NCBI GenBank assembly: GCA_017405805.1
Contig: JAFQZU010000026.1
Span: forward strand, 1-64,000
Origin: Lachnospiraceae bacterium
GTDB lineage: Bacteria > Bacillota > Clostridia > Lachnospirales > Lachnospiraceae
DNA: 64,000 nucleotides
Direction of reading: 5' to 3'
The notes beneath the pieces were generated by a model. That model made no database searches. It was not told where the DNA came from and saw only the letters and a program-made list of their open reading frames with translations. A program made the translations under genes and the position numbers. Below, one piece after another: positions 5,938 to 48,359 of the stretch (its first letter is position 1; each line of letters opens with the position of its first letter).

Positions 5938-7368
5938 TTAATCCCTCGGGTTTTCCTTCGCGCAGTCAAACGTGACATAAGGCGGGTTCTCCCCTCTCTC
6001 CTTCGCGGGCAGGTACCGTTTCCAGAAGTCGTCGAAGAGGCGGAAGATTTCTTTGTGTTTTGCCGCGATGATGAAGATGGTGATCAGCACGTAAACGGCC
6101 GACAGCACATCCGTAAAGGCCCACAGAAGATCAGCCTCGATGTTGTAGAAGATGACGCAGGGAAGCATGTAATAGATCATGTAGATGGGCATCATCTTCC
6201 GGTTGTTCTCGGTGTCGCCAAAAGCATAGTTGACGGACTTCTCACAGGTGTAGTACATACCGATGATGGTCGTCCATGCAAAGACCGCGATCGCGATGGC
6301 CGTAAACTTTCCGCCGATGGCGCCGTAAGCGCTGGTGAAGGCGATCGTCGTCAGCGCCCCGCTCGTGGCGTCACTGGTGTAGTAGGAGCCGGTCATAATG
6401 ATGGTAAACGCCGTGATGGAGCAGATAATAAAAGTGTCGATGAAGACTTCGCCCCAGCCCCACAGGGACTGCCGCACCGGGTGATCCGTCTGCGCGGAGG
6501 CATGCGCGATCATGCCGTAGCCCGTGCCGGCGTCGTTGGAGTAGATGCCGCGCGCCACGCCGTACTGGATGGCGTCCCTTACCGTTGCTCCGGCAAAACC
6601 GCCCGCCGCCGCAGTCGGACTGAACGCGCTCTTAAAGATCAGCGCCACCACGCCGGGAATGTGCTGGAAGTTGAGAATGAGGACGCCAAGCCCCATGATG
6701 ATGTACAGGACTGCCATGATCGGCACCGCGCGGGACATGACGTCGGAAATTCTGCGAAGCCCGCCCCAGATCGTGACGAGGCACGTGATCCCGATCACGA
6801 TGACAGAGGCGAGATTGGGGATGCCAAAAGCCTCTCTCATGGAGCTGGTCACCGCCTCTGTCTGCACGCAGCAGGTCCAGGGCCCGAAAATAAAACAGAA
6901 TACCGCCAGGACGACGGCGCCCCTCTTCCAGCCGAAGGCATTTTTGAGGACGAAGGAGCGGTCGCAGACATACTCGTTCATCGACTTTTTGTAGTGCTCG
7001 CGGTAACGCTGCCCGATGATGATCTCACACGCCTTCGTGGACATGCCAAAAAAGGCCGACACCCACATCCAGACCAGCGCGCCGGGCCCGCCGCTGACGA
7101 TGGCCGTCGCCACGCCGCTGATATTGCCCGTTCCCACGGTGTTGGCGAGTGCCGTGCAGGCCGCCCTGAAGCCGGAGATGGTGCCTTCGCCTTCGCCTTT
7201 GGCGCCGATTTTGCCGTAGGTATTTTTAAAATTGAAGGCGATCTTTGTCTGGTAGCGGAAGGCGAACCGGATACTCAGGATGATGCCCACTGCCAGAAGC
7301 AGGATGGTCATCCAGGTCCCCCACATCAGATCGTCGAGCCAGTACATAAAATCTGTCAGTCCAGCCAT
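5938..7368 (-). CDS. Sodium:alanine symporter family (AGCS) amino-acid carrier
   Basis: A 476-residue inner-membrane protein of the usual AGCS length with about ten to eleven hydrophobic segments. Family hallmarks are GALVWMWVSAFFGMSTKACE and the early ANTVGTGNISGVATAIVSGGPGA stretch (split here for length), plus YGVARGIYSNDAGTGYG. These carriers import alanine, glycine or related amino acids with Na+ or H+. It lies 59 nt downstream of a homocysteine S-methyltransferase gene in the same direction, so it may carry a sulfur-containing amino acid such as methionine or S-methylmethionine; that is inference from context. Confidence 0.9.
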   Translation of the reverse strand: MAGLTDFMYWLDDLMWGTWMTILLLAVGIILSIRFAFRYQTKIAFNFKNTYGKIGAKGEGEGTISGFRAACTALANTVGTGNISGVATAIVSGGPGALVWMWVSAFFGMSTKACEIIIGQRYREHYKKSMNEYVCDRSFVLKNAFGWKRGAVVLAVFCFIFGPWTCCVQTEAVTSSMREAFGIPNLASVIVIGITCLVTIWGGLRRISDVMSRAVPIMAVLYIIMGLGVLILNFQHIPGVVALIFKSAFSPTAAAGGFAGATVRDAIQYGVARGIYSNDAGTGYGMIAHASAQTDHPVRQSLWGWGEVFIDTFIICSITAFTIIMTGSYYTSDATSGALTTIAFTSAYGAIGGKFTAIAIAVFAWTTIIGMYYTCEKSVNYAFGDTENNRKMMPIYMIYYMLPCVIFYNIEADLLWAFTDVLSAVYVLITIFIIAAKHKEIFRLFDDFWKRYLPAKERGENPPYVTFDCAKENPRD

Positions 7369-7427
7369 ATCATTTTCCCCCTATTGCTTTGTATTGCTGT
7401 TCACTTCGCGGTGTTTTGTCTTGCGAT

Positions 7428-8414
7428 TCACCTCACGGTGTGCATGCGCACCGGTTTCCCTTCCTTGATAAACTCTTCTCTTGCTGCCACGCACTGCAGG
7501 ACATGTTTTTCCACCGTCGTGCAGCAGCCGCCGACCGCCGAGGCGCCGCATTTCATATAGGCCAGCGCATAATCGCCAAAATCTCTCCCCTCCCCGTCAC
7601 CGCCGCCTGCCTTGTGCCAAGTCTTGGTCACGGCGTCATATTCCTCCCCGCTGTTGGGATACACGCCGATCGGCAGATCCGTCCCGGCACGCAGCTCCAG
7701 AATGAGGCTCTCAATGTACTCCGGCTTGGAGCAGTTGACGCCAATCATCCTGAGGTGCGGATGGCCCTGCGAAAAAGCCTTCGCGCAGTCGCAGATGAGG
7801 TCGCCTTCCCAGATATGCCTGCCGTCACAGCAGGAGAAGCTGATCCAATAGTCCGCCCCCAGCTCCTCGGCAATATCAGCCGCAAGGAGTGCCTCATGCA
7901 GAGAAGGCTGCGTCTCGATCAGCAGGATGTCCGCGCCTGCCTCGTGCAGGATCTCCATCCTTCTTCTGTGGAACTGATCCAGCACCTCGTCGGACACGCC
8001 GTACTTGCCCCGATACTCGGAACCGTCAGCGAGATAGGCGCCGTAAGGTCCGATCCCCGCAAGGCAAAGCGGCCATACTCTGCCCGCATCACGGCCTTCT
8101 TCTTCCCACCACTCTTCTCTTGCTTCCTTGAAGATCTTTACCGACCGTGCGATCAACGCTTCTGCCTCTTCTAAGGAAAAGCCGTTTTCCATCAGGCCCG
8201 GAATGGTCGCCTGATAGCTGCAGGTGATGCCGCAGTCCGCGCCTGCCCTGAAATAATTCAGATGGACCTGCTTTACCAGTTCCGGCGATCTTTCCAGCGC
8301 CCTGGCCGTCCACAGTTTTGAATTCAGATCCGCTCCGAGGTTCTCCAGTGCGGTCGACATGGAGCCGTCGATGATCATAATGCCGTTTGTGTCGATGATC
8401 TGCTGTATTGTCAT
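7428..8414 (-). CDS. mmuM: Homocysteine S-methyltransferase
   Basis: A 328-residue cytoplasmic zinc enzyme that moves a methyl group from S-methylmethionine (or a similar donor) to homocysteine, giving methionine. The zinc-binding cysteines are visible: IGVNCSKP near residue 228 and the C-terminal GGCCTT pair. The N-terminal IIDGSMSTALENLG and central ADILLIETQPSL are family signatures. The ribosome site AAGGGGGAA precedes the ATG. It forms an operon with the downstream symporter. Short direct repeats around 7398-7440 lie in its last codons and the gap to the symporter. Confidence 0.9.
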   Translation of the reverse strand: MTIQQIIDTNGIMIIDGSMSTALENLGADLNSKLWTARALERSPELVKQVHLNYFRAGADCGITCSYQATIPGLMENGFSLEEAEALIARSVKIFKEAREEWWEEEGRDAGRVWPLCLAGIGPYGAYLADGSEYRGKYGVSDEVLDQFHRRRMEILHEAGADILLIETQPSLHEALLAADIAEELGADYWISFSCCDGRHIWEGDLICDCAKAFSQGHPHLRMIGVNCSKPEYIESLILELRAGTDLPIGVYPNSGEEYDAVTKTWHKAGGGDGEGRDFGDYALAYMKCGASAVGGCCTTVEKHVLQCVAAREEFIKEGKPVRMHTVR

Positions 8415-34584: not shown

Positions 34585-35949
34585 TCAGACCATTTCCTCG
34601 GGGTGGAAGACCTCGTCAAAACGCTCCGCCGTAAGGAAGCCCAAAGAGACGCAGGCCTCCTTCAGGGAGATATTCTCCTTGTGGGCCTTTTTGGCGGTCT
34701 TCGCCGCGTTCTCGTACCCGATATAGGGATTGAGGGCCGTCACCAGCATCAGGGAGTTGTGCAGGTTCTGATGCATTTTCCCGCGGTTGGGCCGGATGCC
34801 CTCCACACAGTTGATCCTGAAGGAGCGCAGCGCGTCTGAAAGGAGCACCGCGGACTGCAGGTAATTGTAGATGATCACGGGCATGAAGACGTTGAGCTCA
34901 AAGTTGCCCTGGGATGCGGCAAAACCCACTGCCGCGTCATTTCCCATCACCTGCACCGCCACCATGGTGACCGCCTCGCACTGCGTGGGGTTCACCTTGC
35001 CGGGCATGATGGAGCTCCCGGGCTCGTTCTCGGGAATAAAGATCTCGCCCAGGCCGCACCGGGGACCGCTGGAGAGCCAGCGCACGTCGTTGGCGATCTT
35101 CATCATGTCCGCCGCCAGCGCCTTGAGGGCGCCGTGGGAGAAGGCGACGGCATCCTTGGCCGTCAGGGCGTGGAATTTGTTCTCTTCCGACACGAAGGGG
35201 CGGCCCGTCAGCTGCGCGACTTCCTTTGCCACCTCCTCCGCAAAGCCTGCGGGCGCGTTGAGGCCGGTTCCCACGGCGGTCCCGCCCAGGGCGAGCCTGT
35301 AGAGTCCTTCCAGGGAGGCGAGGATCATCCTGCGGGATGCCTCCAGCATGCCGCGCCATCCGCTGATCTCCTGGGAAAAGGCGATCGGCACCGCGTCCTG
35401 CAGGTGGGTCCTTCCGCTCTTGACGATCCCTTCGTTTTCCGCTTCCAGCCTCAAGAGGACCGCGATCATCTCGTCGATCTGCGGTATGAGCCTGTCCTCC
35501 ACCGTCATGACCGCCGCGATATGCATGGCCGTCGGGAAGGTGTCGTTGGAGCTCTGGGACATGTTCACCGTGTCGTTGGGGTGCAGGAGCTTTTCCTCCG
35601 CGATCTCGTTCCCCCGTCCGGCGATGACCTCATTCACGTTCATGTTGGACTGGGTGCCGCTCCCCGTCTGCCACACCGCAAGCGGAAAGTGTCCGTCCAG
35701 TTTTCCTTCGAGGATCTCATCGCATACCTGAGAGATCAGCTGCATCCTGCGCTCGTCCAGCTTTCCCAGCGTCCGGTTGGCCCTCGCCGCAGCCTTTTTG
35801 AGCACGGCAAAAGCGCGGATCACCTCCCGCGGCATTTTTTCCGTCCCGATCTCGAAATTCTGGAAGCTCCGCTGCGTCTGCGCGCCCCAGTAGCGGTCCG
35901 CCGGGACCTTCATCTCTCCCATGGAGTCCTTTTCGATGCGATATTCCAT
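34585..35949 (-). CDS. fumC: Fumarate hydratase, class II
   Basis: A ~454-residue oxygen-stable fumarase interconverting fumarate and malate as a tetramer. [16 protein letters not shown] is the fumarase form of the superfamily signature (aspartases have ...NPVIPEV). Other motifs are [25 protein letters not shown] and [10 protein letters not shown]. The start [10 protein letters not shown] has AGGCAGGAA upstream; an in-frame ATG four codons earlier overlaps the preceding hydE remnant's stop as ATGA. It is therefore the last gene of the NifH/Hyp/Hyd cluster transcript. Confidence 0.93.
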
Positions 35950-35957
35950 TTCCTGCC

Positions 35958-36571
35958 TCATCCTTCCCTGCTGATTTCTCTTCCTATATCTGCCTGCCCT
36001 CTGTGATCCCCCCTGGAGACGACCGCCCGGTATCCGGTGCTGTCAATGCGCCGTATGAGATCCGCAACGCCCTCGTCCGGGGTCAGCGCAGTGCCGACCT
36101 TGCCGTCGTACAGAAGGTATTTGTCCCTTGTCACCTGCGGGGAGATATTGGGCATGACCACGTTGGCGCCGGCCATGAGCCCCAGTTCTCTTCCCCTGGG
36201 ATGGATGGATCCCAGCGCAGTCGTAGCGGGCAGAAGCACCTCCGGTATCATGAGCCTGACCACCGCCAGAAGGCGCAGCGTCTGCTCCAGCGTGCCCGCG
36301 GGCTCGTTTCTGAACCTGGTCGCCGTGTGCGGCACAAAGGGGCCGACCCCGACCATATGCGGCCCGAACTCCTGCATATAATACAGGTCTTCCACGATAT
36401 TGTCCAGCGTCTGTCCGGGCGATCCCGCCCTGCAGCACGAAGGTCCGAAAGCCCAGGCGATACCCTTCCCCGCAGCACTGCAGGATCTCCTCCTGCGTCA
36501 GTCTGTAGCGGGCGAGCGTCCGGTTACCGCGCCGGATCCCGCAGGACTTCGATCCTCTCCAGATTGTCCAC
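35958..36571 (-). pseudogene. hydE: Disrupted [FeFe]-hydrogenase maturase HydE
   Basis: HydE is a ~350-residue radical-SAM enzyme. Here only ~614 bp remain, in three pieces in different frames. Piece A from GTG 36571 (VDNLERIEVLR) has GAGGT upstream and hits a stop after 15 codons. Piece B starts in the last Cys of the CX3CX2C motif (CGIRRGNRTLARYRLT to FRTFVLQGG). Piece C runs from GSPGQTLDN to the C terminus (GPHMVGVGPFVPH, LLPATTALGSIHPRGRE, AGANVVMPNISP). About 50 and 105 residues are missing at the two joints, each at 4-6 bp of microhomology. The SAM cluster site is lost, so no HydE activity is possible from this copy. An assembly collapse is the alternative. Confidence 0.85.
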
Positions 36572-36596
36572 GTTACCTCTTTTCCGCCCGCGGCAC

Positions 36597-37799
36597 TCAC
36601 TTGGTCAGGAGCCCGGGCACGTCGGTCGCTCTTTGCAGAATCCCGTTCATATGGGCAATGGCCGTCCCGTAATTGGTCATGGGCACGCCCGCCGCCTCCG
36701 CGGCCCGCATCCTGTACCGGACCTCCCTCTCTCCCAGCATGCAGGCGCCGCAGTGGATGATCAGGGAAAAGGTGGAAAGATCGTCCGGAAAATCGGGGCC
36801 GGAGGAGGTCTCGATGACAAAATGTTTTCCCGTATGTCTCGTCAAAAGGGCGGGGATCTTCACCGTTCCGATATCCCCGCACTGCCTGTGGTGCGTGCAG
36901 CCCTCCGACACAAGGATCCTGGCCCCCTCCTGCAGGCGGTCGATGACCCCGGCGCCGCGCACGGCCTGGTCCAGGAACCCTTTGTAGCGCGCCATCAGAA
37001 TGGAGAAGGAAGTGAGCGGCACGTCCCCGGGAACCTGTGCGGAGACAGATGAAAAGACCTGGCTGTCCGTGATCACAAGGGAAGGCTTTATCCCGGGGAT
37101 CTCCAGCACTTCCTTCAGCCGGTCCTCCTTGACGCAAACCGGGATCCCGTCCGCATCCAGGATCCCGCGGAGCATCATCTGCTGCGGCAGGATCAGCCGG
37201 CCCTTGGGCGCCGCCTTGTCGATGGGGATCACAAGGACGACCCTGTCGGAGGGCCTGACCAGGTCCGCGATCAGAGGCCTCCTGCCCTTCTGGTCCGAAA
37301 GCTCCATATGCGCCAGCTTCTCCTTGAGCTGCGTGATCCCTTCTTTCAGCAGGGCGCTCGTATAGATGGCGCCCTCCTCCGCCGCCTGCTCTCCGGAAGC
37401 TTCGATCAGATCGGCCTTGTTGAAGACCGTGACATAAGGGATCCCGAACTGTCTGAAGCAGCGCACCAGCTCCCTGTCGCAGTCCGTCAAGCCCCTTCGC
37501 GCGTCCGCCACCAGCACCGCAATATCCGTCCTTCTTAAGATCCTGCGCGCCGCCCGCACGCGGAGGGCCCCCAGTTCTCCCTCGTCGTCGTATCCGGGGG
37601 TATCCTGCAGAAGGACCGGCCCCATGGGCAGAAGCTCCATGGCCTTTGTCACCGGGTCCGTCGTGGTGCCGGGCGTATCGGAGACCACCGATACCTCCTG
37701 CCCCGCGACCGCGTTGATCAGACTCGATTTTCCCGCGTTGCGCCGGCCGAAAAACCCTATGTAGACCCGCTCGGCGTTCGGTGTATCCTGAAGACTCAT
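36597..37799 (-). CDS. hydF: [FeFe]-hydrogenase H-cluster maturation GTPase HydF
   Basis: A 400-residue scaffold protein on which the 2Fe subcluster of [FeFe]-hydrogenase is finished. The N-terminal GTPase has GRRNAGKSS (18-26), VSDTPGTTTDP and VFNKADLIE. The C-terminal cluster domain shows CTHHRQCGDIGTVKIP and HCGACML, the Cys/His ligands of its [4Fe-4S] cluster. The start MSLQDTPN overlaps the preceding stop as ATGA with GGAGG 9 nt upstream. It follows a nitrogenase-like gene rather than hydG, which is unusual; no hydG or hydrogenase gene is in the window. Confidence 0.93.
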   Translation of the reverse strand: MSLQDTPNAERVYIGFFGRRNAGKSSLINAVAGQEVSVVSDTPGTTTDPVTKAMELLPMGPVLLQDTPGYDDEGELGALRVRAARRILRRTDIAVLVADARRGLTDCDRELVRCFRQFGIPYVTVFNKADLIEASGEQAAEEGAIYTSALLKEGITQLKEKLAHMELSDQKGRRPLIADLVRPSDRVVLVIPIDKAAPKGRLILPQQMMLRGILDADGIPVCVKEDRLKEVLEIPGIKPSLVITDSQVFSSVSAQVPGDVPLTSFSILMARYKGFLDQAVRGAGVIDRLQEGARILVSEGCTHHRQCGDIGTVKIPALLTRHTGKHFVIETSSGPDFPDDLSTFSLIIHCGACMLGEREVRYRMRAAEAAGVPMTNYGTAIAHMNGILQRATDVPGLLTK

Positions 37800-39022
37800 A
37801 TCCATTTTCCTCCCATGATCGACGCGCAGTCCCCCTCGAACAGATCCGGCATCCTGTCCAGAAAGATCCGGCCGGAAAAGGCCAGATGCGGGACGGGAAA
37901 CAGCTCTGCGCCCTCCGGGCAGACCGGCCTGTAAAGGGGATCCGCCGCCACGGCGATCCTCTCTCCCCTGCTGTCCGCTTCCCGCGCCAGGACCCGGAGC
38001 CTTTTCGCGAGCTCCTCCTCCCCGAAGAAGGAGAAATCGCGGTCTTTTCTGATAAAAGGCGCGCTGTTTTCCGTCGCGGCCGCCACGACCGTCTTTGTGC
38101 TGCCGCCGCTCTCCATCCGCAGCGCCGCCGCAAGGCTCCCCATGACGACCGGTTCCCCGATCAGGATCACGGTCCTTCGCGCGGCTGCGTTTTCCGGCAC
38201 TTCCAAAAACGGGACCGTAAACTGCCCGGGCCGGTCTCCCGCTGCTTTTTCCGTCTCTCTTAACAGTCTTTCCGAGAAGGCCCCGCAGGGGACGCCGAAG
38301 ACCGCCGGCGTTCCAAAGCGCTCCCGCAGCACCTGCGCTGCCCCTTCCCCCGAGGAGGAGACGGCCAGATTGACGTCTGCCCGGGCAGAAGATCCGATCG
38401 ACTGCACGCCCCTTCCCATGCCCCAGCAGGCATGCAGGCGCAGAGAGGCCTTCTCCAGCTTATCTTCCAGCGCCTCCGCCGCCCCCGGGGCGGCGAAATC
38501 CAGCGGTGTCATTCCCAGCACATTCACTTTGAGAGGGCCTCCTGCAAAAGAAGTGCTTTCCGCCGTCACAGCCTCCTCCACGAGCACGGTCTCCGCCAGC
38601 TGCGCAAACGCCTGCGAAACACCCTGTACATAGTCATGCATCCCGTTGGTCCTGACATGGAAGACCGGCACGCCGGTCCTCTTCTCCAGTACCCTGCACA
38701 CGCCGGCAAAATCCGTCCCGTTCAGATAGGGAATCGGGGAATTGCACAGCGCGATAAAGCGCGGGCGGTAGAGCGCTGCGGCCTGCGCCGTGTCCTCGAT
38801 GAGCTTCTTATCATTCCCGAGCATGGCGTCCCGCTCCGTAAATCCCGTCAGGAAGATCAGGCTGTCCGTGTCGTACCATCGCGTCTCGTCGTGGGTGTCG
38901 TAGGTGGAATAGCAGCCCGAAGGATCGTGGATCACCACCATGCCGCCCATCTCGAACAGGGCCGAGCAGGCCCCGGAGACGTCGCCGCTGTAAACCGGCA
39001 GGATCCGGTTGGTCTGTCTCAT
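37796..39022 (-). CDS. Nitrogenase component-1-like protein (NifK-like half)
   Basis: A 408-residue protein with the three-Cys pattern of P-cluster-type component 1 proteins: Cys19 in SGACSALFEMGG, Cys37 in IHDPSGCYSTY and Cys93 in IALCNSPIPYLNGTD. Lines up with NifK Cys70, Cys95 and Cys153. The following text (FRVRTNGMHDYV, then VNVLGMTPLDF) also follows the NifD/K fold. It is clearly related to the C-terminal half of the 805-residue fusion at 45181-47598. Its ATG overlaps the stop of its 475-residue neighbour, so the two should form a heterodimer. Substrate unknown. Confidence 0.75.
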   Translation of the reverse strand: MRQTNRILPVYSGDVSGACSALFEMGGMVVIHDPSGCYSTYDTHDETRWYDTDSLIFLTGFTERDAMLGNDKKLIEDTAQAAALYRPRFIALCNSPIPYLNGTDFAGVCRVLEKRTGVPVFHVRTNGMHDYVQGVSQAFAQLAETVLVEEAVTAESTSFAGGPLKVNVLGMTPLDFAAPGAAEALEDKLEKASLRLHACWGMGRGVQSIGSSARADVNLAVSSSGEGAAQVLRERFGTPAVFGVPCGAFSERLLRETEKAAGDRPGQFTVPFLEVPENAAARRTVILIGEPVVMGSLAAALRMESGGSTKTVVAAATENSAPFIRKDRDFSFFGEEELAKRLRVLAREADSRGERIAVAADPLYRPVCPEGAELFPVPHLAFSGRIFLDRMPDLFEGDCASIMGGKWI

Positions 39023-40446
39023 ATCCTTGTCCTTTCCGCCGCGCCCGGCAGGATGCAGGTGCAGCCGAGGCCCTTTCGCTGCACGATCTCTTTCGTATCC
39101 TTTTTGACAAGGCAGGCCTCTTCCATAAGCTGCGCCATCCGCCGGATCCCGTAATAGCCCCAGAGTCCGCCGTATTCCACCATGTTCACGAACCACGGGG
39201 TGTCCTCATACCAGGCGGCTTTGGGACCGATGGCAAGGACTTCCTCCCCGCCCGCGGCGCGCTCTTCCTCTCTGCAAAGGCGCCCGCCGTGCAGGACTCT
39301 TCCCCCGATATGCACCGTCTTATGCAGATACAGGTCCGGAAAGGATTCCTGCAGGAAGAGGAAATCCTTCTCCTCCTCCGGATGGATCATGTCCAGATAG
39401 ACGGTCTTTACGGCAAAACCATGCTCCAAAAGAAGGCGCGCCCATCCCAGCGGTCTCTGGACGGCCGCAGCGTCGATGGCGATCTGCCTCGTTCCGACCG
39501 TTGCCTTCGCCCCGGCCAGCGCCGCCTCGCAGGCCTCGATCTCCTCATTTTGGCGATGATTAAAAAGTGCTGTGTCCGGCTGCAGTCCCAGCGCCCCGGC
39601 GAGCTGCCCCCGCATCCTTCGGATCTCCTCATAGCCGTAGGCGTTGGGGAGATACAGGCCGGGCTTCCCCAGCCTTTTGGCCGCGCGCCGCATGCCCGGC
39701 GCCGCCAGGGGGCTCCTCGCGATAAAAAGGTCGCTCCCTGCCATCTGCCGGTACGCAGCGAAAGTGCCGCAGTCCTGGATCCTGTGGAGCCGGGCGCCGG
39801 CCTCTGAGACAAGGCGCGCGATATCGCTGTCCTCTTCCAGCGGGAGATTGTCCCCGATCACCGATACGTGGAAGCCTCCCTCCGGATAGGGCTGCGCCGA
39901 GCCGGCCGTGAGAAGATCCGCCATGGCGGTGCGCAGCTTTTCATCGGGCGTGGGGCCGGTCTTCTGCATGACCGGGTCCATCCAGGCGCGCACGAAAACA
40001 ACGTCGGGAAATCGCTTTTCCAGTTCCGCGTAGACATACTGCAGATCGCAGCCCATAAAGTGATGCAGGCAGACGGGGAACACGATGACCGCGGGCGGCA
40101 GTGCGGGAAGCTTGTGCAGGACGTCCGTCACGCCCTCCAGCGTGATGCTCTCGAGGTTGTCCCTGTAGAGGTCGCTCTCCGTGATCAGGACGCAGGAAAA
40201 ACGCTCCAGCGCGTCCATCTCCGCCGCCGTCATCACCACGCCCCGCATGCAGTTCTCCGCGCAGACATAGATCTGGTGCGCCTGCGGCAGAAGCATCCCG
40301 ATATGGACGATATTCCAGGTCTCGTGGACGGGCGGGTTGAATTCGAGTTCCCTCTTCCAGGGGTTCGGGAAAACCGCTTCCCCGATCCGCACCCGGACTT
40401 CTTCGGGCGTGATCCCGCGCGCCCCGGGCGTCACTCTGGTCAGCAT
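39019..40446 (-). CDS. Nitrogenase component-1-like protein (NifD-like half)
   Basis: A 475-residue protein resembling component 1 subunits, related to the N-terminal half of the 805-residue fusion. Cys62 and Cys66 (YVCAENCMRG) and Cys126 and Cys133 (FPVCLHHFMGCD) are candidate cluster ligands; more Cys occur near the C terminus (KGLGCTCILPG). FNPPVHETWNIVHIGMLLPQ opens the fold. No true NifD FeMo-cofactor His/Cys pair is recognisable by eye. It ends in ATGA with the NifK-like gene, and lies 42 nt after hypE. Confidence 0.7.
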   Translation of the reverse strand: MLTRVTPGARGITPEEVRVRIGEAVFPNPWKRELEFNPPVHETWNIVHIGMLLPQAHQIYVCAENCMRGVVMTAAEMDALERFSCVLITESDLYRDNLESITLEGVTDVLHKLPALPPAVIVFPVCLHHFMGCDLQYVYAELEKRFPDVVFVRAWMDPVMQKTGPTPDEKLRTAMADLLTAGSAQPYPEGGFHVSVIGDNLPLEEDSDIARLVSEAGARLHRIQDCGTFAAYRQMAGSDLFIARSPLAAPGMRRAAKRLGKPGLYLPNAYGYEEIRRMRGQLAGALGLQPDTALFNHRQNEEIEACEAALAGAKATVGTRQIAIDAAAVQRPLGWARLLLEHGFAVKTVYLDMIHPEEEKDFLFLQESFPDLYLHKTVHIGGRVLHGGRLCREEERAAGGEEVLAIGPKAAWYEDTPWFVNMVEYGGLWGYYGIRRMAQLMEEACLVKKDTKEIVQRKGLGCTCILPGAAERTRI

Positions 40447-40488
40447 GGCGCCTCCTTTCTCTTTCGCTTATCTGATCCGGCTGTCTCT

Positions 40489-41496
40489 TCAGCAGATCCT
40501 GGGCAGGAGCTCTCCCCCCGGGGGCGGCAGGAGCGTCAGCGCGCCGATCCTGGTGCGCATCACAACTCTTCCGGCCTCCTCTTTCGTGATCTTTCCGATC
40601 GCGCGGGCCCCTTGCGTGTGCGGGCTCCCGTGCAGGATGTCCAGGATCCTGTCCGCCTTATCCCCGGGCGCGATCATGACCATGGTGCCCTCACAGGCCA
40701 GATAGAGGGGCTCAAGCCCCAGCATGCCGCAGACGCCGCGCACGGCGGGATCGACGGGAACCGCCTCCGAATTCAGCTCACATCCGACGCCGCTCTGTCC
40801 GGCGATCTCATAGAGCACAGTGCCCACGCCGCCGCGGGTCGCGTCCCGGATGACATGTACGTCCGGCACCTCCAGCAGGACCGAACGGACTGCCTTCCAA
40901 AGCGGCGCGCAGTCGCTCTTTATGTCCGCTTCGATGCCGAAATCCTCTCTCTCAAGAAGGATGGTGCACCCGTGCCGTCCCACGTCTCCCGTCACGATGA
41001 TCACGTCCCCGGGCCTGGCCAGCGCCCCGGAGGTCCGGATCCCGTCCATGATTCTCCCGATCCCGGTCGTGTTGATAAAGACGCCGTCCGCCTGTCCCTT
41101 CCCTACGACTTTCGTGTCGCCGGCTACGAGCAGTACGCCTGCCTCCCGGGCCGTCTGCGACATGGCCTCGGCGACTTTTTTGAGTTTTTCCAGGGGGAAT
41201 CCTTCCTCGATGATAAAACCGCAGGTCATATACAGCGGTTCCGCCCCCATGCAGGCCAGATCATTCACCGTGCCGCAGATGGAGAGCTTTCCGATATTGC
41301 CGCCCGGAAAGAAGGCGGGCGATACGATAAAACTGTCGGTCGTCATGGCCAGCTCCCCCTGCGGCACGCGCAGCACCGCCGCGTCATCCGCGGTAAAATA
41401 AGGGTTTTCAAAGGCCGCCCTGAAGACCGTTTCAATGAGCTGGGCCGTCTTTTTTCCGCCTGCCCCGTGTGCCAGCGTTACATATTCTTCCTTCAT
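40489..41496 (-). CDS. hypE: Hydrogenase maturation protein HypE
   Basis: A 335-residue PurM-like ATP enzyme. HypE receives carbamoyl from HypF on its C-terminal Cys and dehydrates it to thiocyanate, the cyanide source of the Fe(CN)2CO unit. The C terminus reads LLPRIC, with the catalytic Cys as last residue, exactly as needed. Other motifs: LAHGAGGKKTAQLI, DDAAVLRVP, GTVNDLACMGAEP, VAGDTKVV and RDATRGGVGTVLYE. It is the last of four hyp genes in the cluster. Confidence 0.95.
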   Translation of the reverse strand: MKEEYVTLAHGAGGKKTAQLIETVFRAAFENPYFTADDAAVLRVPQGELAMTTDSFIVSPAFFPGGNIGKLSICGTVNDLACMGAEPLYMTCGFIIEEGFPLEKLKKVAEAMSQTAREAGVLLVAGDTKVVGKGQADGVFINTTGIGRIMDGIRTSGALARPGDVIIVTGDVGRHGCTILLEREDFGIEADIKSDCAPLWKAVRSVLLEVPDVHVIRDATRGGVGTVLYEIAGQSGVGCELNSEAVPVDPAVRGVCGMLGLEPLYLACEGTMVMIAPGDKADRILDILHGSPHTQGARAIGKITKEEAGRVVMRTRIGALTLLPPPGGELLPRIC

Positions 41497-41533
41497 ATTC
41501 TCCTCCCTGGGAGCGGATCACGGGATCCGCCCC

Positions 41534-42562
41534 TCATCCATACAGATAAAAAGCCGAGCAGGCCCCCTCGCCGGAGACCATACAGGCGCCGACGGGGTGC
41601 TCCGGCGTACAGACTTTGCCAAACAGGCTGCAGTCCCGGGGAAGACATTTCCCCTGCAGCACTTCCCCGCAGCGGCAGGCCGGATTGCTCCTTCCGTGCA
41701 TGGGCGGGAGCGAAAACTTCCGCCTCGCGTCATACCGGGCGTATTTGTCCCGCAGTTTCATGCCCGACATGGGCAGGACGCCGATCCCTCGCCACTCGCT
41801 GTCACAGGGCTCCATGATGCGCTCCACGAGCCTGCGGGCAGCCGGCGAGCCCTCTCTTTTGACCACTCTCGGGTAGCAGTTGACGAAGAAAGGCTCGCCC
41901 TTTTCGAACCGGGTCACCGCCACAGCCAGCGCCGTCAGAAGCTCGGACGCCGTAAAGCCGGCGCAGACGCCGCTCACGCCTTCCTCCGCCAGCTTTTCGC
42001 AGATGCCGGTCCCGGTGATCGCGTGCACGTGTCCCGGATACAGGAACAGGTCCGTGCTGTGCCGCATGGCGTCATAGGCGGCCGGCATGGTCTTGCCGGC
42101 CGTAAGAAGGCTGAAATTGTCGAGTGCGGCGGCTTTCTCCACAGCGATGCAGGATGCGGGCGTCGTCGTCTCAAACCCGACGGAGAGAAAGACCACCTGC
42201 TCTTCCGGGTGTCCCGCCGCGTATTCCGCCGCGTCCGCCGGCGCGTACACCACACGCACTTTTGCGCCCTGCCCCCTTGCGTCCGCGAGACTCATGCTTG
42301 TTCCGGGCACCCGCACCAGATCGCCGAAAGTGCAGATGGTGCACCCGTGCTCCAGGGCCAGGGATACCGTCTCGTCGATAAAGCCTGCCGGCGTCACGCA
42401 GACGGGGCAGCCGGGACCGGAGATCAGCGTGATCTTCGCGGGCAGGATGCGGCGTATGCCCTGCCGGAAGATCTCGTGCGTATGGGTCCCGCACACCTCC
42501 ATGATCCGCACCGGCGGTCCGTCGTATTTTTGAAGGATCTGTGCCGCTTTCATTTCCGCCAT
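41534..42562 (-). CDS. hypD: Hydrogenase maturation protein HypD
   Basis: A 342-residue [4Fe-4S] redox protein that, with HypC, holds the iron receiving CO and CN. Family motifs are intact: MEVCGTHTHE, SGPGCPVCVTP, and the C-terminal Cys-rich part (ACRCGEVLQGKCLPRDCSLF, CTPEHPVGACMVSGEGAC). It lies 3 nt after hypC. The start could be the first ATG or the one three codons later (MKAAQILQKY). Confidence 0.95.
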   Translation of the reverse strand: MAEMKAAQILQKYDGPPVRIMEVCGTHTHEIFRQGIRRILPAKITLISGPGCPVCVTPAGFIDETVSLALEHGCTICTFGDLVRVPGTSMSLADARGQGAKVRVVYAPADAAEYAAGHPEEQVVFLSVGFETTTPASCIAVEKAAALDNFSLLTAGKTMPAAYDAMRHSTDLFLYPGHVHAITGTGICEKLAEEGVSGVCAGFTASELLTALAVAVTRFEKGEPFFVNCYPRVVKREGSPAARRLVERIMEPCDSEWRGIGVLPMSGMKLRDKYARYDARRKFSLPPMHGRSNPACRCGEVLQGKCLPRDCSLFGKVCTPEHPVGACMVSGEGACSAFYLYG

Positions 42563-42565
42563 GAT

Positions 42566-42781
42566 CTATAAGCCCTCCGTCTGCAGGAGACGTTCGCTCT
42601 CCTCTTCGTCATCCTCCGTGATCCTGGCGATCGCCGCGCCGGCGTGGACCATCACATATTCACCCGGCTCCAGATCCTCCAAAAGGGCCGCGCTCACCTC
42701 TCTGCGCGCGCCGGAGGCATCCACCAGCGCCGTGCCGTCTTCCCTGATCCTGACCACTCTGGCCGCAAGTCCTACACACAT
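42566..42781 (-). CDS. hypC: Hydrogenase maturation chaperone HypC
   Basis: A 71-residue HypC/HybG-type protein. The essential Cys2 is present (MCVGLAARVV), exposed after Met removal, which ligates the Fe(CN)2CO precursor with HypD. The rest is the small barrel (EDLEPGEYVMVHAGAAIARI). It is 1 nt from hypF and 3 nt from hypD. Confidence 0.95.
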   Translation of the reverse strand: MCVGLAARVVRIREDGTALVDASGARREVSAALLEDLEPGEYVMVHAGAAIARITEDDEEESERLLQTEGL

Positions 42782-42782
42782 A

Positions 42783-45194
42783 TCAAGCTCTCCCTTCCGA
42801 ATTCTTCGTTTTTGTTCTCACACGCAGTCTTTCCATGGCCGCCACGGCCTGCCCCAGCGCGATCCCCCCGTCACTCGGCGGGATCATACTGTGGACCAGG
42901 ACCTCCATTCCACGGCCCGCAAGGCGCTCCTGCACCATCTGCAGAAGCATTTTATTCTGGAAGCACCCGCCGCTGAGGGCCGCCGTCCCGATCCCCGTCC
43001 TTTCGCAGGCGCGCAGGCAGGCTTCCGCGACCAGATCCGCCAGTCCCGCATGAAAGCGGTACGCCAGTTCGTCCGCCGGATCTCCCCGGAGACGCCCGCA
43101 CAGGACCTGCCTGAAAAGCCTGTCCGTCTCCATGACCATAAAACCGTCCTCCCGCTCTGTGAGGCCTGTTTCGGCAAAGGGCCCCGGCAGCGCTGTCCCG
43201 TTTCGGACCGCTGTATCCCGGAAGCGCTCTGCGGCAAATTCCAGATCCATGGCCGCCTCCCCCTCGAAGGAAGAGGCGGTGCAGATCCCCAGGACAGCGC
43301 TCACCGCGTCAAAAAGCCTCCCGGCGCTGGTGGACCGCACGGCTCCCATGCCGCTCCGCTTCATCCGCATCAGCACCCGCGCCTGCAGCTCGGAACACAG
43401 CCCGATCTCTGCGGCCAGTTCTTCGGGGCTCTCCCCGGATCCCGCGGGGGACAGATCGTCCAGCATGGCGGCGGCGATGCGCCATCCTTCTTTGGCGGAC
43501 AGATCTCCGCCCACCTGCAAAAACGGCGCGATGCTCCCGAGCCGAGCAAAGCCCGTCGCATCCGCGATCAGGATCTCACCGCCCCAGATCGTGCCGTCCG
43601 TCCCGTATCCCGTCCCGTCCAGGGCCGCGCCGATCACCCGGTCCATCCGGTCGTTCTCTGCCATGCAGGACAGAATGTGGGCGTAATGGTGCTGTACTGT
43701 GATCAGCTCCGCACCGTATTCCTGCGCCAGAACCTTGGCCGCGCCCGCGGAGTTGTACTGCGGGTGAAGATCACAGGCGATCACTTCGGGATGCAATTCG
43801 AGGAGCTTCGCGTAGCGGCACACAGTTTCCTCCAGGGCCTTTACGCTCCGCAGATCCCCCAGATCCCCGATGTGCGAGGAGGGATAGAACAGATTTCCCG
43901 TCCCGAGACAGAACGTATTCTTGAGCTCTCCGCCGATGCCCAGCACGGCGCCCGTTTTTTGACGGCCCTCCCGCGCCGGAAAACCGGAGAGCATGCAGGG
44001 CACCGGCGCATAGCCCCTCGACCGCCGGATCATATACGGCTTTCCCCGGTAGAAATCCATGACGGAATCGTCCGCCCGGATGCGGATCTTTCTGTCGTGG
44101 GACAGGATGCAGTCGCACAGGCCGCTCAGCTCGCGCAGCGCCTCCCCGTCGTTTCTGCAGATGGGGGCGCCCGCCACATTTCCGCTCGTCATGACGAGGG
44201 CGTCCGGCATCCGCTCGTCGAGCCCGTCGGGATAGGAAAAGAGCAGCATCTGGACCGGCGCGTACGGGAGCATCACGCCCAGCGTCGGATTGCCCGGTGC
44301 CACCGCCTCGCAGATCTTTCCGCCGGGTTTGCGCACAAGGAGCAGGATCGGTTTCTGGTGCCCCGTCAGGATCTCCTGCTGCGCACGGCTCACCTCGCAT
44401 TCCCGCTGCGCGGTCTCCGGATCCCTCACCATCACGGCAAACGGTTTGCGGGGCCGGGTCTTGCGCGCGCGCAGAAGGTTTACCGCCTCTTCGGACAGGG
44501 CGTCGCAGCACAGATGAAAGCCGCCGACCCCCTTCACGGCAAGGATCCCTCCCTCCGCCAGGACTTTGCGCGCCTTTCTGATGGCGCTGTCTCCCTGCTC
44601 CCGGATCCCGTCCCGGTCCACGACATACACGCTGGGACCGCACTTATTGCAGCAGACCGGCTGCGCGTCGTACCGTCTGCTGGACGGCATGACATACTCC
44701 GCGCGGCACTTTCTGCACATGGGAAACATCTTCATGCTGGTGCGCTCCCTGTCATAGGGCAGCGATTCCAGTATGGTCAGGCGGGGGCCGCAGTTCGTAC
44801 AGTTGATGAAGGGATGCAGGTACCGCCTGTCCGCGGGATCGTAGAGTTCCTTCCTGCAGGTGTCGCAGGTGGCGATATCCGGGGAGATAAAGATCTCCCC
44901 GCTTGTTTTTTCGCTCTCCACGATGGAGAAGCCGTCAAAATGCGGCGCCGCGATCTGCGCCGACTCCACGCCCAGGATCACTGCCCTGGCCGGCGGCTTA
45001 CTCTGCAGCAGCGAACGGAACCGGTCGATCTGCGCCGGGGTTCCCTGGGCTATGATATCGACGCAGGAGCCCCTGTTGCAGACGGTTCCCCGTATGCCTG
45101 CGGTCCGGGCGTGGCGGTCTGCCGTCGGCCTGAACCCGACTCCCTGCACGATGCCGTATACCCTTATTCTTCTGGTGATCTCATCTGCGCTCAC
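42783..45194 (-). CDS. hypF: Carbamoyltransferase HypF
   Basis: An 803-residue enzyme converting carbamoyl phosphate to carbamoyl-adenylate and loading HypE. Domains in order: acylphosphatase (~1-90, RVYGIVQGVGFRP), two zinc fingers (CDTC, CTNC, CRKC, CNKC knuckles, ~105-190), a YrdC-like part (~200-390) and a Kae1/carbamoyltransferase part (LDGTGYGTDGTIWGGE). The GTG start at 45194 overlaps the stop of the upstream fusion gene and has GGAAAGGA upstream. Full family length, apparently intact. Confidence 0.95.
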   Translation of the reverse strand: MSADEITRRIRVYGIVQGVGFRPTADRHARTAGIRGTVCNRGSCVDIIAQGTPAQIDRFRSLLQSKPPARAVILGVESAQIAAPHFDGFSIVESEKTSGEIFISPDIATCDTCRKELYDPADRRYLHPFINCTNCGPRLTILESLPYDRERTSMKMFPMCRKCRAEYVMPSSRRYDAQPVCCNKCGPSVYVVDRDGIREQGDSAIRKARKVLAEGGILAVKGVGGFHLCCDALSEEAVNLLRARKTRPRKPFAVMVRDPETAQRECEVSRAQQEILTGHQKPILLLVRKPGGKICEAVAPGNPTLGVMLPYAPVQMLLFSYPDGLDERMPDALVMTSGNVAGAPICRNDGEALRELSGLCDCILSHDRKIRIRADDSVMDFYRGKPYMIRRSRGYAPVPCMLSGFPAREGRQKTGAVLGIGGELKNTFCLGTGNLFYPSSHIGDLGDLRSVKALEETVCRYAKLLELHPEVIACDLHPQYNSAGAAKVLAQEYGAELITVQHHYAHILSCMAENDRMDRVIGAALDGTGYGTDGTIWGGEILIADATGFARLGSIAPFLQVGGDLSAKEGWRIAAAMLDDLSPAGSGESPEELAAEIGLCSELQARVLMRMKRSGMGAVRSTSAGRLFDAVSAVLGICTASSFEGEAAMDLEFAAERFRDTAVRNGTALPGPFAETGLTEREDGFMVMETDRLFRQVLCGRLRGDPADELAYRFHAGLADLVAEACLRACERTGIGTAALSGGCFQNKMLLQMVQERLAGRGMEVLVHSMIPPSDGGIALGQAVAAMERLRVRTKTKNSEGRA

Positions 45195-47598
45195 TGCCTG
45201 TCCTTTCCCTCTCTTCCTCCGTGTGTCCGGAAACGGCAAAATGTACCAGCGGGATCCACGCCCCTTCAAAGGCCGGCACCATCTCCCTGCACACGGGATC
45301 TGCCGCGATCACGTCGTAGCTGCCCCTTCGGACGGCGGACGCAAAGGCCGCGGCGTCCGAAAAAGCGAGGTCTCCCTCCTTCATCAGGTCCTTCTTCATC
45401 ATGAAAAAGCTTCCTGCCGTCACGGAGGCCGCCCCCTCTTCCACAAGCACGTCCCGTATGGAATTTGCCGTGATCTGCTCGTGTACCACAAGGACCTTTT
45501 TGCCCTTCCAGTCCGCGTTCCAGCCGCGCGCGGCACGCGCCGCAAGGGGATTTTCACAGGTAAAGGGCGTCCCGAAGCGGTCCCGGAGGACCTTTGCGGC
45601 CTCATAGGCCGAGACGGATACCACCAGGTTGGCGGCGGCGCTGCCCGCCTCTTTGAATCGGTCCAGCCCGTCCCCCATGCCGCAGCAGACAGGCTCGCGC
45701 CACCCCTCCTCAAGGAGGAGTTCCTTGAGCCGCATGCCGCTGTCCGGATCTCCCAGATCCATGGGCGTGGCGCCGAGGATCCCAAGGCGCCCCTGCCGCA
45801 CTGTCACCTCCCCCGCCGGGCAGAAGGTGTCCGCCAGCGCCAGCCAGGCTTTTTCCGCACCGGCGTCATAGTACGCCATTCCGGTCGTCGGGATGGCCAG
45901 CACCGGAAGACCGGTCTTCTTTTTGACCATGCGCGATATGGCCTGCAGATCAGTCCCGATCACGGCGGGGACCGGCGTGCCGATGACTGCGGCAAAAGCG
46001 TATTCGTCCTCCTGCGCCGCCTCCGCGAGCTTGCGGACGAGGTCCCTGTCCCGGCCCATAATGGCGTCCATATCCCGCAGTCCCGCGCTGAACAGGGCGC
46101 TTTTGCGGGTGAGCCATCTCGGCTCGTCAAAACCGCATATATTTCCCGTACAGCCTCCCGCATCGCAGATGACCGTTATGCCGCCCAGGCCAAAGAGCAC
46201 CGATACCGCCCCCGACTGATCCGGCGCAAAGGGCGTCACGCTCAGTGAGGATCCCCTGAGCTGAACGGAAGGGGCGTACGCGGCCGCGGCCGCTCCGGCA
46301 TCGGTCCCGCCCTCCGCCAGCCGGGTGAGCGCCTCGTAAAAGCGCTTTGCGCCCCTGTAGCCGAAGGGCTGAACGTCACTGCTCCACTGCAGGCACGGAA
46401 GATCCCTGTGATAATAGCCGGCGTCCCTTCCCACGCAAAGGGTGACCGCCGGGTCCGCCTCATAGTGGATCATGGAGGGGTGCAGGCTGGAGTAGACCCG
46501 CGTGTCCGGGCTGACCGCCGCGATCCTGCGCAGATAGGGGTAGGACGCCTCCGTCACGGTCCCGAAGATCTCCGCCACGGCAAAGCCGCTCCGGACCAGC
46601 GCCAGCGCCAGCTCAAAGGGATCTCCGTTGAGGGCCTCTCCCACTGAAAAGACGGCGTCCGCATGGCGCTTCCGAAAGGCCTCCAGGACCGCCTCTGCTT
46701 CCTTCCTGTACGCCTCGTCGTCAAAACGCACGCCCAGCACCGACCCCAGCGCGGCATACTGCTGCGCGATCCTGTCGATCTGATAGAGTCTGGTCAGTTC
46801 GACGGCGGGAATGCCCAGCCGCTCCTCCAGATCCAGGGCGGCGGGCCGGGCCTCCGGATGGAGGACCAGGTTGAAATTGGCCTCCGCCATCTCCAAAAAG
46901 GCGTCGTAATCCGCCGCGGTCGGAAGCGAGCGTATGGCCTTTACGCCGGCCTGTCCAAGGAGCGCAGGCAGTTCGCAGTCCTCCTCAAGCGGCGCAAAAT
47001 ATCCCAGTATATTCACGCTGGTGCGCTTTCTGGGCCTTTTTTCCAAAAGCGCATACAGGGACTGCCTCACATGCACCATGGGCGGTCTGCGCCCTTCCCT
47101 GGTCAGCGCGTACATGTAGCAGGGGCGGACCCGCACGCCGGTCTTTTCCTGCGCTTTGCGGCAGACCCGCTCCATATCGGTGCCGAGCAGCGCGTCCACG
47201 CAGGTGATGCAGATCATGACGACCGAAGGCTTCCTGCCCAGCTCCCCGCAGATCTTCTCCACGGCCGCCGGGATCTTCTTCAGGTGCCGTCCGGTCACCA
47301 GGTCCGTCTCATTCATGGTCAGATAAAAGAAGCGGTTCTCATAGCCCGGCATGGCGCTGATGGAGGAGGTATTTCTCGCGCAGCACCCCGGGGACACGAC
47401 CAGCATCACGGAGCCGGGGATGGAGAGGCCTGCTCTTTTGACGCCGAATCCTTCCGCGCCGGGCGAGTGGAAGGCCAGTGTTGCCGGGGAGCTGTAAAGC
47501 AGGGTTTCCGTTGTTTTGAAAGGCCTTGGAATCTCCCGGGCCCCCGCCCGGACCAGTTCTCCCACAGTATAAAAAAGCGCACCGCTCCGGTCTCTCAT
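45181..47598 (-). CDS. Fused double nitrogenase component-1-like protein
   Basis: An 805-residue protein whose halves are both component-1-like. Residues ~30-410 resemble the separate 475-residue protein: VVSPGCCARNTSS (Cys72/73) and ICITCVDALLGTD (Cys130/133). Residues ~460-800 resemble the separate 408-residue protein: SVLFGLGGITVICDAGGC followed by DEPRW and IGTPVPAVIGTDL. In this half two of the three cluster cysteines kept in the 408-residue protein are replaced (Ala and Gly positions), so the sites differ. Fusion fixes the two halves 1:1, as in NifEN-type scaffolds. The ATG overlaps the NifH-like gene's stop as ATGA. Enzyme or scaffold cannot be told. Confidence 0.75.
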   Translation of the reverse strand: MRDRSGALFYTVGELVRAGAREIPRPFKTTETLLYSSPATLAFHSPGAEGFGVKRAGLSIPGSVMLVVSPGCCARNTSSISAMPGYENRFFYLTMNETDLVTGRHLKKIPAAVEKICGELGRKPSVVMICITCVDALLGTDMERVCRKAQEKTGVRVRPCYMYALTREGRRPPMVHVRQSLYALLEKRPRKRTSVNILGYFAPLEEDCELPALLGQAGVKAIRSLPTAADYDAFLEMAEANFNLVLHPEARPAALDLEERLGIPAVELTRLYQIDRIAQQYAALGSVLGVRFDDEAYRKEAEAVLEAFRKRHADAVFSVGEALNGDPFELALALVRSGFAVAEIFGTVTEASYPYLRRIAAVSPDTRVYSSLHPSMIHYEADPAVTLCVGRDAGYYHRDLPCLQWSSDVQPFGYRGAKRFYEALTRLAEGGTDAGAAAAAYAPSVQLRGSSLSVTPFAPDQSGAVSVLFGLGGITVICDAGGCTGNICGFDEPRWLTRKSALFSAGLRDMDAIMGRDRDLVRKLAEAAQEDEYAFAAVIGTPVPAVIGTDLQAISRMVKKKTGLPVLAIPTTGMAYYDAGAEKAWLALADTFCPAGEVTVRQGRLGILGATPMDLGDPDSGMRLKELLLEEGWREPVCCGMGDGLDRFKEAGSAAANLVVSVSAYEAAKVLRDRFGTPFTCENPLAARAARGWNADWKGKKVLVVHEQITANSIRDVLVEEGAASVTAGSFFMMKKDLMKEGDLAFSDAAAFASAVRRGSYDVIAADPVCREMVPAFEGAWIPLVHFAVSGHTEEERERTGSERR

Positions 47599-48359
47599 GT
47601 GCCGCCTTCCTCCTCTTCGATCAGTTTCTGCGCCAGTTCCAGAAAGCAGCGGCTTACAGGGAGCGACGGATCCCGTTCGACCGTCGTCATGCCCTTCTCC
47701 TCACACTGCTGGATCTCCCTGCTCCTGGGGACGAAGGCGATGACGGGGATTCCCTGTCCGTCGGCAAAATCCTGCACCTTCTCCCTCTCCTTCTCTACAT
47801 TCCGCTCGTTGCAGATCACGCCGTACACGCCGGCGTATCCCCTGTCCTCGAAATTGCGCACGGCGGTACAGATATTGCCGGCCGCATATAGGGCCATCTT
47901 CTCGCCGGAAGTCACAATGATGACTTTGCGCGCATATCCCTCCCGGATGGGGGCGGCAAAACCGCCGCACACCACGTCGCCGAGCACGTCGTACAAAACC
48001 ACGTCCGGCCGGAAAGTCTCAAAGAGCCTGAGATCCTCCAGGATCTGGAAAGTGGCAAGGATCCCTCTCCCGGCACACCCCAGACCGGGGGTCGGCCCTC
48101 CCGTCTCGATGCAAAGGACATTTCCGTAGCCCGACGCGGAGATCTCCTCCACGCTCTGAGGATCCTCGTCGTGATCTCTCAGGTAATCCATGACGGGCGT
48201 TACGCGCCGTCCTCCCAGGAGATTCATGGTGGAATCCGCCTTGGGATCGCAGCCGATCTGGATGACCCGCTTTCCCAGCTTCGCGAACGCCGCCGACAAG
48301 TGGGAGGTCATGGTGGACTTCCCGATTCCGCCTTTACCGTAAACCGCAATTCTGATCAT
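47595..48359 (-). CDS. NifH-like iron protein (nitrogenase-type reductase)
   Basis: A 254-residue ATP-driven electron donor. P-loop GKGGIGKST is at 8-16, GCDPKADST follows, and both [4Fe-4S] ligands are present: Cys95 in GCAGRGI and Cys131 in LGDVVCGGFA. It is slightly shorter than true NifH (about 290), matching nitrogenase-like reductases rather than N2-fixing ones. MIRIAVYGKG is the start, with AAGGAGCGAT upstream. It heads the cluster and should reduce the component-1-like partners encoded next. Confidence 0.92.
   Translation of the reverse strand: MIRIAVYGKGGIGKSTMTSHLSAAFAKLGKRVIQIGCDPKADSTMNLLGGRRVTPVMDYLRDHDEDPQSVEEISASGYGNVLCIETGGPTPGLGCAGRGILATFQILEDLRLFETFRPDVVLYDVLGDVVCGGFAAPIREGYARKVIIVTSGEKMALYAAGNICTAVRNFEDRGYAGVYGVICNERNVEKEREKVQDFADGQGIPVIAFVPRSREIQQCEEKGMTTVERDPSLPVSRCFLELAQKLIEEEEGGT

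Follow-up and report, generated by a model that had tools for sequence, protein, structure and literature searches.

Hyp and nitrogenase-like genes in place of HydG: a probable alternative route to the [FeFe]-hydrogenase H-cluster in Bacillota and Actinomycetota

We analysed a 64,000-nucleotide (nt) stretch of DNA from a Lachnospiraceae bacterium (the window; assembly GCA_017405805.1, contig JAFQZU010000026.1, positions 1 to 64,000), in which nitrogenase-like, Hyp and HydE/HydF-type genes form a single operon that probably serves [FeFe]-hydrogenase maturation. It comprises ten features, all on the minus strand. The open reading frame (ORF) positions and family models agree with a first-pass annotation of the DNA, which had described ten same-strand genes in this order with short gaps or overlaps. 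The operon begins with NifH1, a NifH-like ATP-dependent reductase (47595..48359; PF00142, Fer4_NifH, 293 bits), for which we chose an ATG start, the listed ORF beginning at a GTG at 48431. C1f (45181..47598; 805 amino acids) is a fused, NifE-like component-1-like alpha+beta pair matching PF00148 (Oxidored_nitro) in two stretches (179 bits). The carbamoyltransferase HypF (42783..45194; TIGR00143, 705 bits, cut-off 466) has a complete set of Pfam domains, and its gene probably starts at a GTG at 45194, 14 nt within C1f. It is followed by HypC (42566..42781; TIGR00074, 57 bits, cut-off 48), a protein of 71 amino acids beginning MCVGLAA; the scaffold HypD (41534..42562; TIGR00075, 359 bits, cut-off 193), which retains CGTH, GPGCPVC and the C-terminal cysteines; and HypE (40489..41496; TIGR02124, 418 bits, cut-off 252), which ends in PRIC. 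A second component-1-like pair is encoded separately, as an alpha subunit, C1A (39019..40446; PF00148, 42.7 bits), and a beta subunit, C1B (37796..39022; PF00148, 103.9 bits). The last two features are the [FeFe]-hydrogenase maturation GTPase HydF (36597..37805; TIGR03918, 517 bits, cut-off 326) and a HydE remnant (35958..36596) in two pieces and different frames, detected by TIGR03956 (179 bits, cut-off 255) in its C-terminal part (35958-36395) and by tblastn with an intact HydE. Measured between ORF ends, the gaps are -4 nt (NifH1/C1f), 1 (HypF-HypC), 3 (HypC-HypD), 37 (HypD-HypE), 42 (HypE-C1A) and -10 (C1B-HydF), and C1A and C1B overlap by a shared ATGA. HypE is directly followed by C1A, with no gene for NifH2 or the TM1266 regulator (TIGR03959) between them.

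In 299 genomes of the window's family, the window genome included, a C1f match (E-value up to 1e-10) was present in 49, and the loci fall into types. Module 1, found in 19 genomes of this set, is NifH1-C1f-HypF-C-D-E. Module 2 is NifH2-C1A-C1B, often accompanied by HydE, HydF and TM1266. In the loci examined, a third type, NifH-C1-C1, was flanked by neither Hyp nor Hyd genes. Relatives of the C1f alpha half numbered 399 when genome contigs were scanned, and the loci of the best 80 were read (the named loci). Their carriers include metagenome-assembled genomes (MAGs) of Lachnospiraceae, Oscillospiraceae and Ruminococcaceae, Pseudoramibacter, and Actinomycetota such as Olsenella massiliensis. 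Across Bacillota and Actinomycetota, the consensus order of the named loci is NifH1-C1f-HypF-C-D-E-[TM1266]-[NifH2]-C1A-C1B-[HydF], with optional genes in brackets. NifH precedes C1f in 76 of the 79 testable loci, HypF directly follows C1f in 74 out of 74, and HypE follows HypD in 60 of 65; after HypE comes TM1266, NifH2 or C1A (55 of 59), and after C1B comes HydF or HydE (17 of 34). C1f is fused in 37 of the 80. Because these adjacencies recur throughout the named loci, the operon order is not a product of chance. The proposal of a conserved system joining NifH-like, component-1-like, HypCDEF and HydEF genes is thus upheld, and the alternatives raised with it, a gene order unique to this genome or hyp and nif-like genes that never co-occur elsewhere, are at odds with its recurrence in two phyla. 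HydE, HydF or TM1266 occurs in 55 of the 80 named loci, and in 41 of the 49 that are at least 19 kb long, while HydG was found in none of the 80. HydE is intact in relatives (e.g. 567 bits in L047), and in one locus (L169) the gene immediately 5' of NifH1, on the same strand, encodes a HydA (6450-8186) that has the three H-cluster motifs.

NifH1 carries the expected motifs (the P-loop GKGGIGKS, GCAGRG and VLGDVVCGGF) and yet scores below each reductase cut-off compared: 303 against 394 bits for nifH, 305 against 402 for CfbC, 200 against 345 for BchL and 190 against 331 for BchX. The component-1-like proteins likewise fall below the nifD, nifE and nifN cut-offs, and C1A matched no NCBIfam model at E-values up to 0.001. 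Membership of the nitrogenase, CfbCD (F430) or DPOR/COR families was rejected, NifH1 and the component-1-like proteins being under all such cut-offs. No Mar-specific model was among the NCBIfam matches of the window proteins, and no search was aimed at Mar subunits. The best PDB relatives of the two C1f halves are a nitrogenase alpha chain and NifE. Among 16 aligned relatives, the invariant cysteines of C1f are Cys72, 73, 130 and 133 in the alpha half and C43 and C48 in the beta half. In the profile alignment with 9p1x_A, the cysteine of the CHRSINY segment, which we take to be the cofactor-ligating cysteine of the nitrogenase alpha chain, falls in an insertion and has no C1f partner. The C1A and C1B profiles resemble NifE-type and DPOR subunits, C1A weakly; C1B has one invariant cysteine (C37), which a weak match pairs with a cysteine in the NifN part of a fused NifEN. 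In phylogenies, the NifH proteins separate the types less cleanly than the component-1 proteins, the alpha tree of which was built by a quick method: NifH2 forms one clade, and the NifH of module 1 and that of the third type require two changes each. The system thus shares with NifH-NifEN cofactor assembly a NifH-like reductase, two-subunit NifE/NifN-like proteins and some cysteines of the kind that presumably ligate clusters, but differs in lying below the nifH, nifD, nifE and nifN cut-offs and in the missing C1f counterpart of the alpha-chain cofactor cysteine.

The four Hyp proteins share with those of [NiFe]-cofactor synthesis their catalytic motifs and scores above the curated cut-offs. 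Nevertheless, the [NiFe]-hydrogenase family PF00374 had no match in the window genome (2.05 Mb, 84% complete). HypD was detected in 28 of 80 family genomes (set 1, described below): the 19 with module 1 and nine others. PF00374 is present in all nine others, but in only two of the 19 module-1 genomes (G069 and G230), each with a second HypD at its PF00374 locus. In a HypD tree containing 45 of 94 module sequences, the module HypDs form one clade (support 100/98) apart from 11 HypDs of [NiFe] genomes, one of which (G010) has PF00374 on another contig. The split is present in all 200 bootstrap trees and holds for the two genomes with both kinds of HypD, although long branches ask for caution. 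HypA was matched in two [NiFe] loci and in none of the module loci. The N-terminus of HypC also differs, reading MCVGL[SPA] in 82 of 85 module proteins against MCVA in seven of eight from [NiFe] genomes. The module proteins look functional from their motifs: HypE ends in PRIC, with the cyanide-carrying cysteine, in 86 of 88, HypD keeps CGTH and GPGCPVC in 93 of 93, and all three NifH1 motifs are kept in 95 of 101 proteins labelled NifH1. Service to a [NiFe]-hydrogenase, encoded nearby or elsewhere, was therefore rejected on the absence of PF00374 from the window genome and 17 of 19 carriers, the second HypD of the remaining two and the separate HypD clade. One genome of the window's genus (G267) has no HydF, HydG or C1f match and carries PF00374 with adjoining HypD and HypE (L182); since it differs from the window genome in this way, hydrogenase equipment varies within the genus.

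HydG is the enzyme that supplies the H-cluster with its CO and CN (PMC11736057). We searched for it in three genome sets with a profile of 470 positions and a cut-off of 312 bits. Set 1 comprises 80 family genomes, namely the 49 with C1f hits and 31 without (G267 and 30 picked by hand, not at random). HydF, counted at E-values up to 1e-50, was present in 51, and HydG exceeded the cut-off in 25, all HydF-positive. Every module-1 genome had HydF (19 of 19) and none had HydG (0 of 19). HydF was found in 17 of the 30 C1f-hit genomes without module 1, ten of which had HydG, and in 15 of the 31 non-hits, all 15 with HydG; HydG thus accompanies HydF in 25 of 32 genomes without module 1. Set 2 consists of 391 genomes sampled from the class irrespective of the module. 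Its 11 module-1 genomes all had HydF and none had HydG over the cut-off, against 233 of 250 HydF-positive genomes without module 1 (Fisher p 2.8e-12, uncorrected for kinship). The HydF counts of this set include one match below the cut-off (260 of 261 above it), and hypC-D-E was seen in 10 of the 11 module genomes, the stretch in G602 showing HypF and then another ORF. For set 3 we took 50 named genomes out of the 80. Fifteen are isolates, among which Olsenella massiliensis is the one actinomycete; the others are MAGs of Actinomycetota (20) and Lachnospiraceae (five) and ten further Clostridia. No HydG match at E-values up to 1e-65 was found in these 50; the contigs of L102 and L128 end before HypF, so that hyp genes there lie outside view. 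Set 1 shares three genomes with set 3 and the window genome with set 2; with these counted once, 76 assemblies have the module and none has HydG. Among the carriers in which no HydG was found are gut bacteria, namely Blautia species, Roseburia faecis, Coprococcus comes, Anaerobutyricum hallii and Eubacterium ramulus, together with Coriobacteria.

The best HydG-profile match in the window genome reached 171 bits, over profile positions 45-375. Matches of this kind (157-205 bits) were not accepted as HydG: they lie below 312 bits, end at position 372-399 of 470 and also occur in HydG-positive genomes; they look like ThiH-type proteins. Sub-cut-off matches in four set 2 genomes (G371, G428, G503 and G609) were scored as HydG-negative, the first of which may be a fragment.

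The module carriers do encode a hydrogenase to be matured. PF02906 was matched in all 19 module-1 genomes, in 18 at E-values below 1e-80 and in G083 at 2e-57. The window genome has two such matches; one HydA (L001) contains TSCCPGW, MPCTAKKAE and EVMACPGGCSGGG, and the other locus (L002) none of the three. The only HydF match of this genome is that of the operon. In its hydE remnant, homologous pieces lie in two frames, and most of the radical S-adenosylmethionine (SAM) cysteine cluster and approximately residues 111-215 are gone; no other HydE-like radical-SAM match was seen in the genome, the view being the indirect one of the HydG-profile search. Published activities are available for two carriers in which module 1 is present and HydG was not found, Blautia luti (L118) and Blautia schinkii (L114); the genome taken as B. 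schinkii (G263) has HydF and no PF00374. H2:methyl viologen activity is reported as 14-644 mU/mg, "relatively low", under six growth conditions in B. luti, the hydrogenases of which are HydABC and HydM, and as about 23,000 mU/mg in B. schinkii (PMC12773636). Taken together, these activities and the HydG-free genomes mean that the H-cluster is very probably made without HydG, and the operon genes are the obvious source of its CN. Nine other genomes of the family (G003, G008, G017, G019, G022, G032, G042, G050 and G198) have PF02906 matches at E-values below 1e-90, in the score range of canonical HydA, with no HydF at E-values up to 1e-50 and no HydG over the cut-off, so that their HydA-like genes have no known maturases beside them in these searches.

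Given the absence of HydG, the linkage to HydE, HydF and TM1266 and the location of the genome's only HydF in the operon, we consider it likely that the operon encodes an assembly line for the H-cluster of an ordinary [FeFe]-hydrogenase that takes the place of HydG, and not a new catalytic enzyme. With HydEFG maturation it would share HydF, HydE (intact in relatives such as L047), the TM1266 of relatives and a canonical HydA, and it differs in having Hyp and nitrogenase-like genes in the place of HydG. HypF and HypE convert carbamoyl phosphate into cyanide, HypC-HypD place the cyanide on iron, and HydF delivers the product to HydA. In the assembly line that we infer, HypF/HypE and HypC-HypD would perform these same steps. 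NifH1 and C1f may form an ATP-driven low-potential reductase working with HypCD, which would most likely supply the CO ligand or ligands, for example by reducing CO2 to CO. C1A-C1B, relying on a NifH2 of its own or, in the window, on the shared NifH1, could be a NifEN-like scaffold that reshapes or pairs Fe-CO-CN units and passes them to HydE/HydF, a guess suggested by the linkage to these two genes, and HydF would then hand the product to HydA. A dedicated CO generator would make sense, given the higher CO demand of the H-cluster compared with the [NiFe] site. The CO source of anaerobic Hyp chemistry is described as unsettled, and labelling in C. necator excluded exogenous CO2 as the direct source (PMC12134894), which speaks against the simplest form of CO2 reduction to CO. 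Conversely, CO2 reduction on HypCD has been argued to require ATP coupling like that of the nitrogenase iron protein (PMC6886295), and iron proteins reduce CO2 to CO (PMC9571451). A more specific version, in which NifH1-C1f is a dedicated CO2-to-CO reductase for HypC-HypD, a NifEN-like scaffold turns mononuclear Fe-CO-CN into a diiron precursor, and genomes with an importer may take up the Fe-CO-CN precursor of their neighbours, is possible but on the unlikely side. If it were true, NifH1-C1f would be the source, so far missing, of CO for Hyp chemistry under anaerobic conditions.

Several observations weigh against an H-cluster assembly line of this kind. There is a mismatch of stoichiometry between the Hyp product, Fe(CN)2CO, and the HydE substrate, Fe(CO)2CN. 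As hydE is broken, the pathway of the window genome may be decaying, or the assembly may be wrong there. The strains in which activity was published may differ from the genomes searched, and the B. luti activity is low. HydG is also missing, at the same cut-off, from 17 of the 250 module-1-free HydF genomes of set 2, seven of them less than 90% complete and ten at least 95% complete. For those ten, nine HydF loci were fetched (not that of G366), and at this locus-level view seven lack a nitrogenase-like gene: G454, G575 and G623 have HydE-HydF-TM1266 alone, and G436, G572, G656 and G658 have HydF with no HydE nearby. The HydF loci of G521 and G666 read HydE-NifH2-C1A-C1B-importer-HydF. In set 1, seven genomes with HydF and without HydG have no HypD (G048, G117, G134, G226, G227, G245 and G281); NifH2-C1A-C1B accompanied by an ABC importer is present in five of these; of the other two, one shows C1A/C1B-like genes where its contig ends and one has the third type only. 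The existence of such genomes means that Hyp is not required in all cases, and because HydG is also absent where module 1 is, its loss alone is no proof. The joint pattern of HydG absence and module presence is, moreover, partly inherited. Module 2 is compatible with HydG, the two occurring together in G224.

The first-pass annotation had proposed that the component-1-like proteins carry or build an iron site with CO/CN ligands as part of a new metalloenzyme. Iron-CO/CN chemistry is indeed implied by the gene content, but the absence of HydG and the linkage to HydE, HydF and TM1266 argue against these proteins as a new enzyme bearing the site. Such an enzyme, with a catalytic Fe-CO/CN site built by HypCDEF while HydE and HydF do a separate job, appears improbable. 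The two component-1 pairs beside a motif-intact NifH could be catalytic and scaffold proteins, as NifDK and NifEN are, and the third NifH-C1-C1 type does occur without HydE or HydF neighbours in the loci read; this explanation nevertheless leaves unaccounted for the HydG counts of 0/19, 0/11 and 0/50, TM1266 and HydF in the operon, and a HydA in need of CO and CN. It is quite improbable that HydG-free carriers mature HydA from stray CO and CN through HydE and HydF alone, the operon doing other work. In vitro, activation with just HydE and HydF reached about 1% (cited in PMC9431212), and the seven HydG-free HydF loci without nitrogenase-like neighbours and the low B. luti activity would fit this explanation; however, the B. 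schinkii activity of about 23,000 mU/mg is not residual (PMC12773636), and an operon fixed in two phyla would go unexplained.

To our knowledge, HypCDEF are familiar only from [NiFe]-hydrogenase maturation, which would favour a role of the hyp genes in serving an unrecognised [NiFe]-hydrogenase or another Fe(CN)2CO enzyme, the nitrogenase-like genes encoding an unrelated reductase nearby. We regard this as highly improbable in view of the 17 of 19 carriers lacking PF00374, the second HypD of the other two, the restriction of HypA to two [NiFe] loci and the separate HypD clade.

A hyp-free form of the putative assembly line can be distinguished by its transporter genes. Of the 90 C1A-containing loci, hyp genes lie no more than eight genes away in 80 and a FecBCD-type importer is present in nine. 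None has both and one has neither; in the genome of the last, the hyp module is on another contig. Most C1A loci were fetched via C1f, which inflates the figure of 80, so that the telling contrast is that of the importer, 0 of 80 against nine of ten. The hyp-free form also occurs in other families of the class, where L155 and L161 read HydE-NifH2-C1A-C1B-substrate-binding protein-HydF with an importer. Import of a precursor in this form is possible. Such transporters are not confined to it: FecBCD-type genes or a substrate-binding protein adjoin the third NifH-C1-C1 type in L061, L172, L173 and L174. In the hydEFG cluster of a HydG-positive genome (G072, locus L180), importer-like genes for a FecCD-type permease and ATPase separate TM1266-HydE-HydG from HydF.

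An early report described, in Coprococcus catus, genes of NifHEN type adjacent to those for hydrogenase maturation and suggested, in one sentence, a role in assembly of "the active site metallocluster" (Dos Santos 2012; PMC3464626). These are very likely the same genes as those of the module, to which the present analysis adds the absence of HydG, the combination of Hyp and Hyd genes, the two modules and the importer form. In Clostridium acetogens, a genome survey published in 2022 found HydE and HydF without a recognised hydG in five of eight, and HypCDEF without HypA/B in five of eight, with four species in both groups; it suggested an atypical radical-SAM protein acting as HydG or an unknown ligand route, and in its available text "nitrogenase" appears in a reference title only (PMC9431212). 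A 2025 study of group B [FeFe]-hydrogenases from the gut gave no hits for maturation terms (PMC12578642), and searches of the open-licence PMC literature yielded no report of HydG replacement by such genes. The system is real and widespread, unstudied as far as that literature shows, and best classed with H-cluster maturation, as a variant lacking HydG. It could account for the hydG-free acetogens left puzzling by the 2022 survey (PMC9431212), it bears on which gut bacteria make H2 and, if the proposed steps are true, its chemistry would be unusual.

An Rfam scan of the window at the gathering threshold returned one tRNA. Downstream of the hydE remnant, also on the minus strand, lies a gene (34585-35961) that reads, from its ORF, as class II fumarate hydratase-like.

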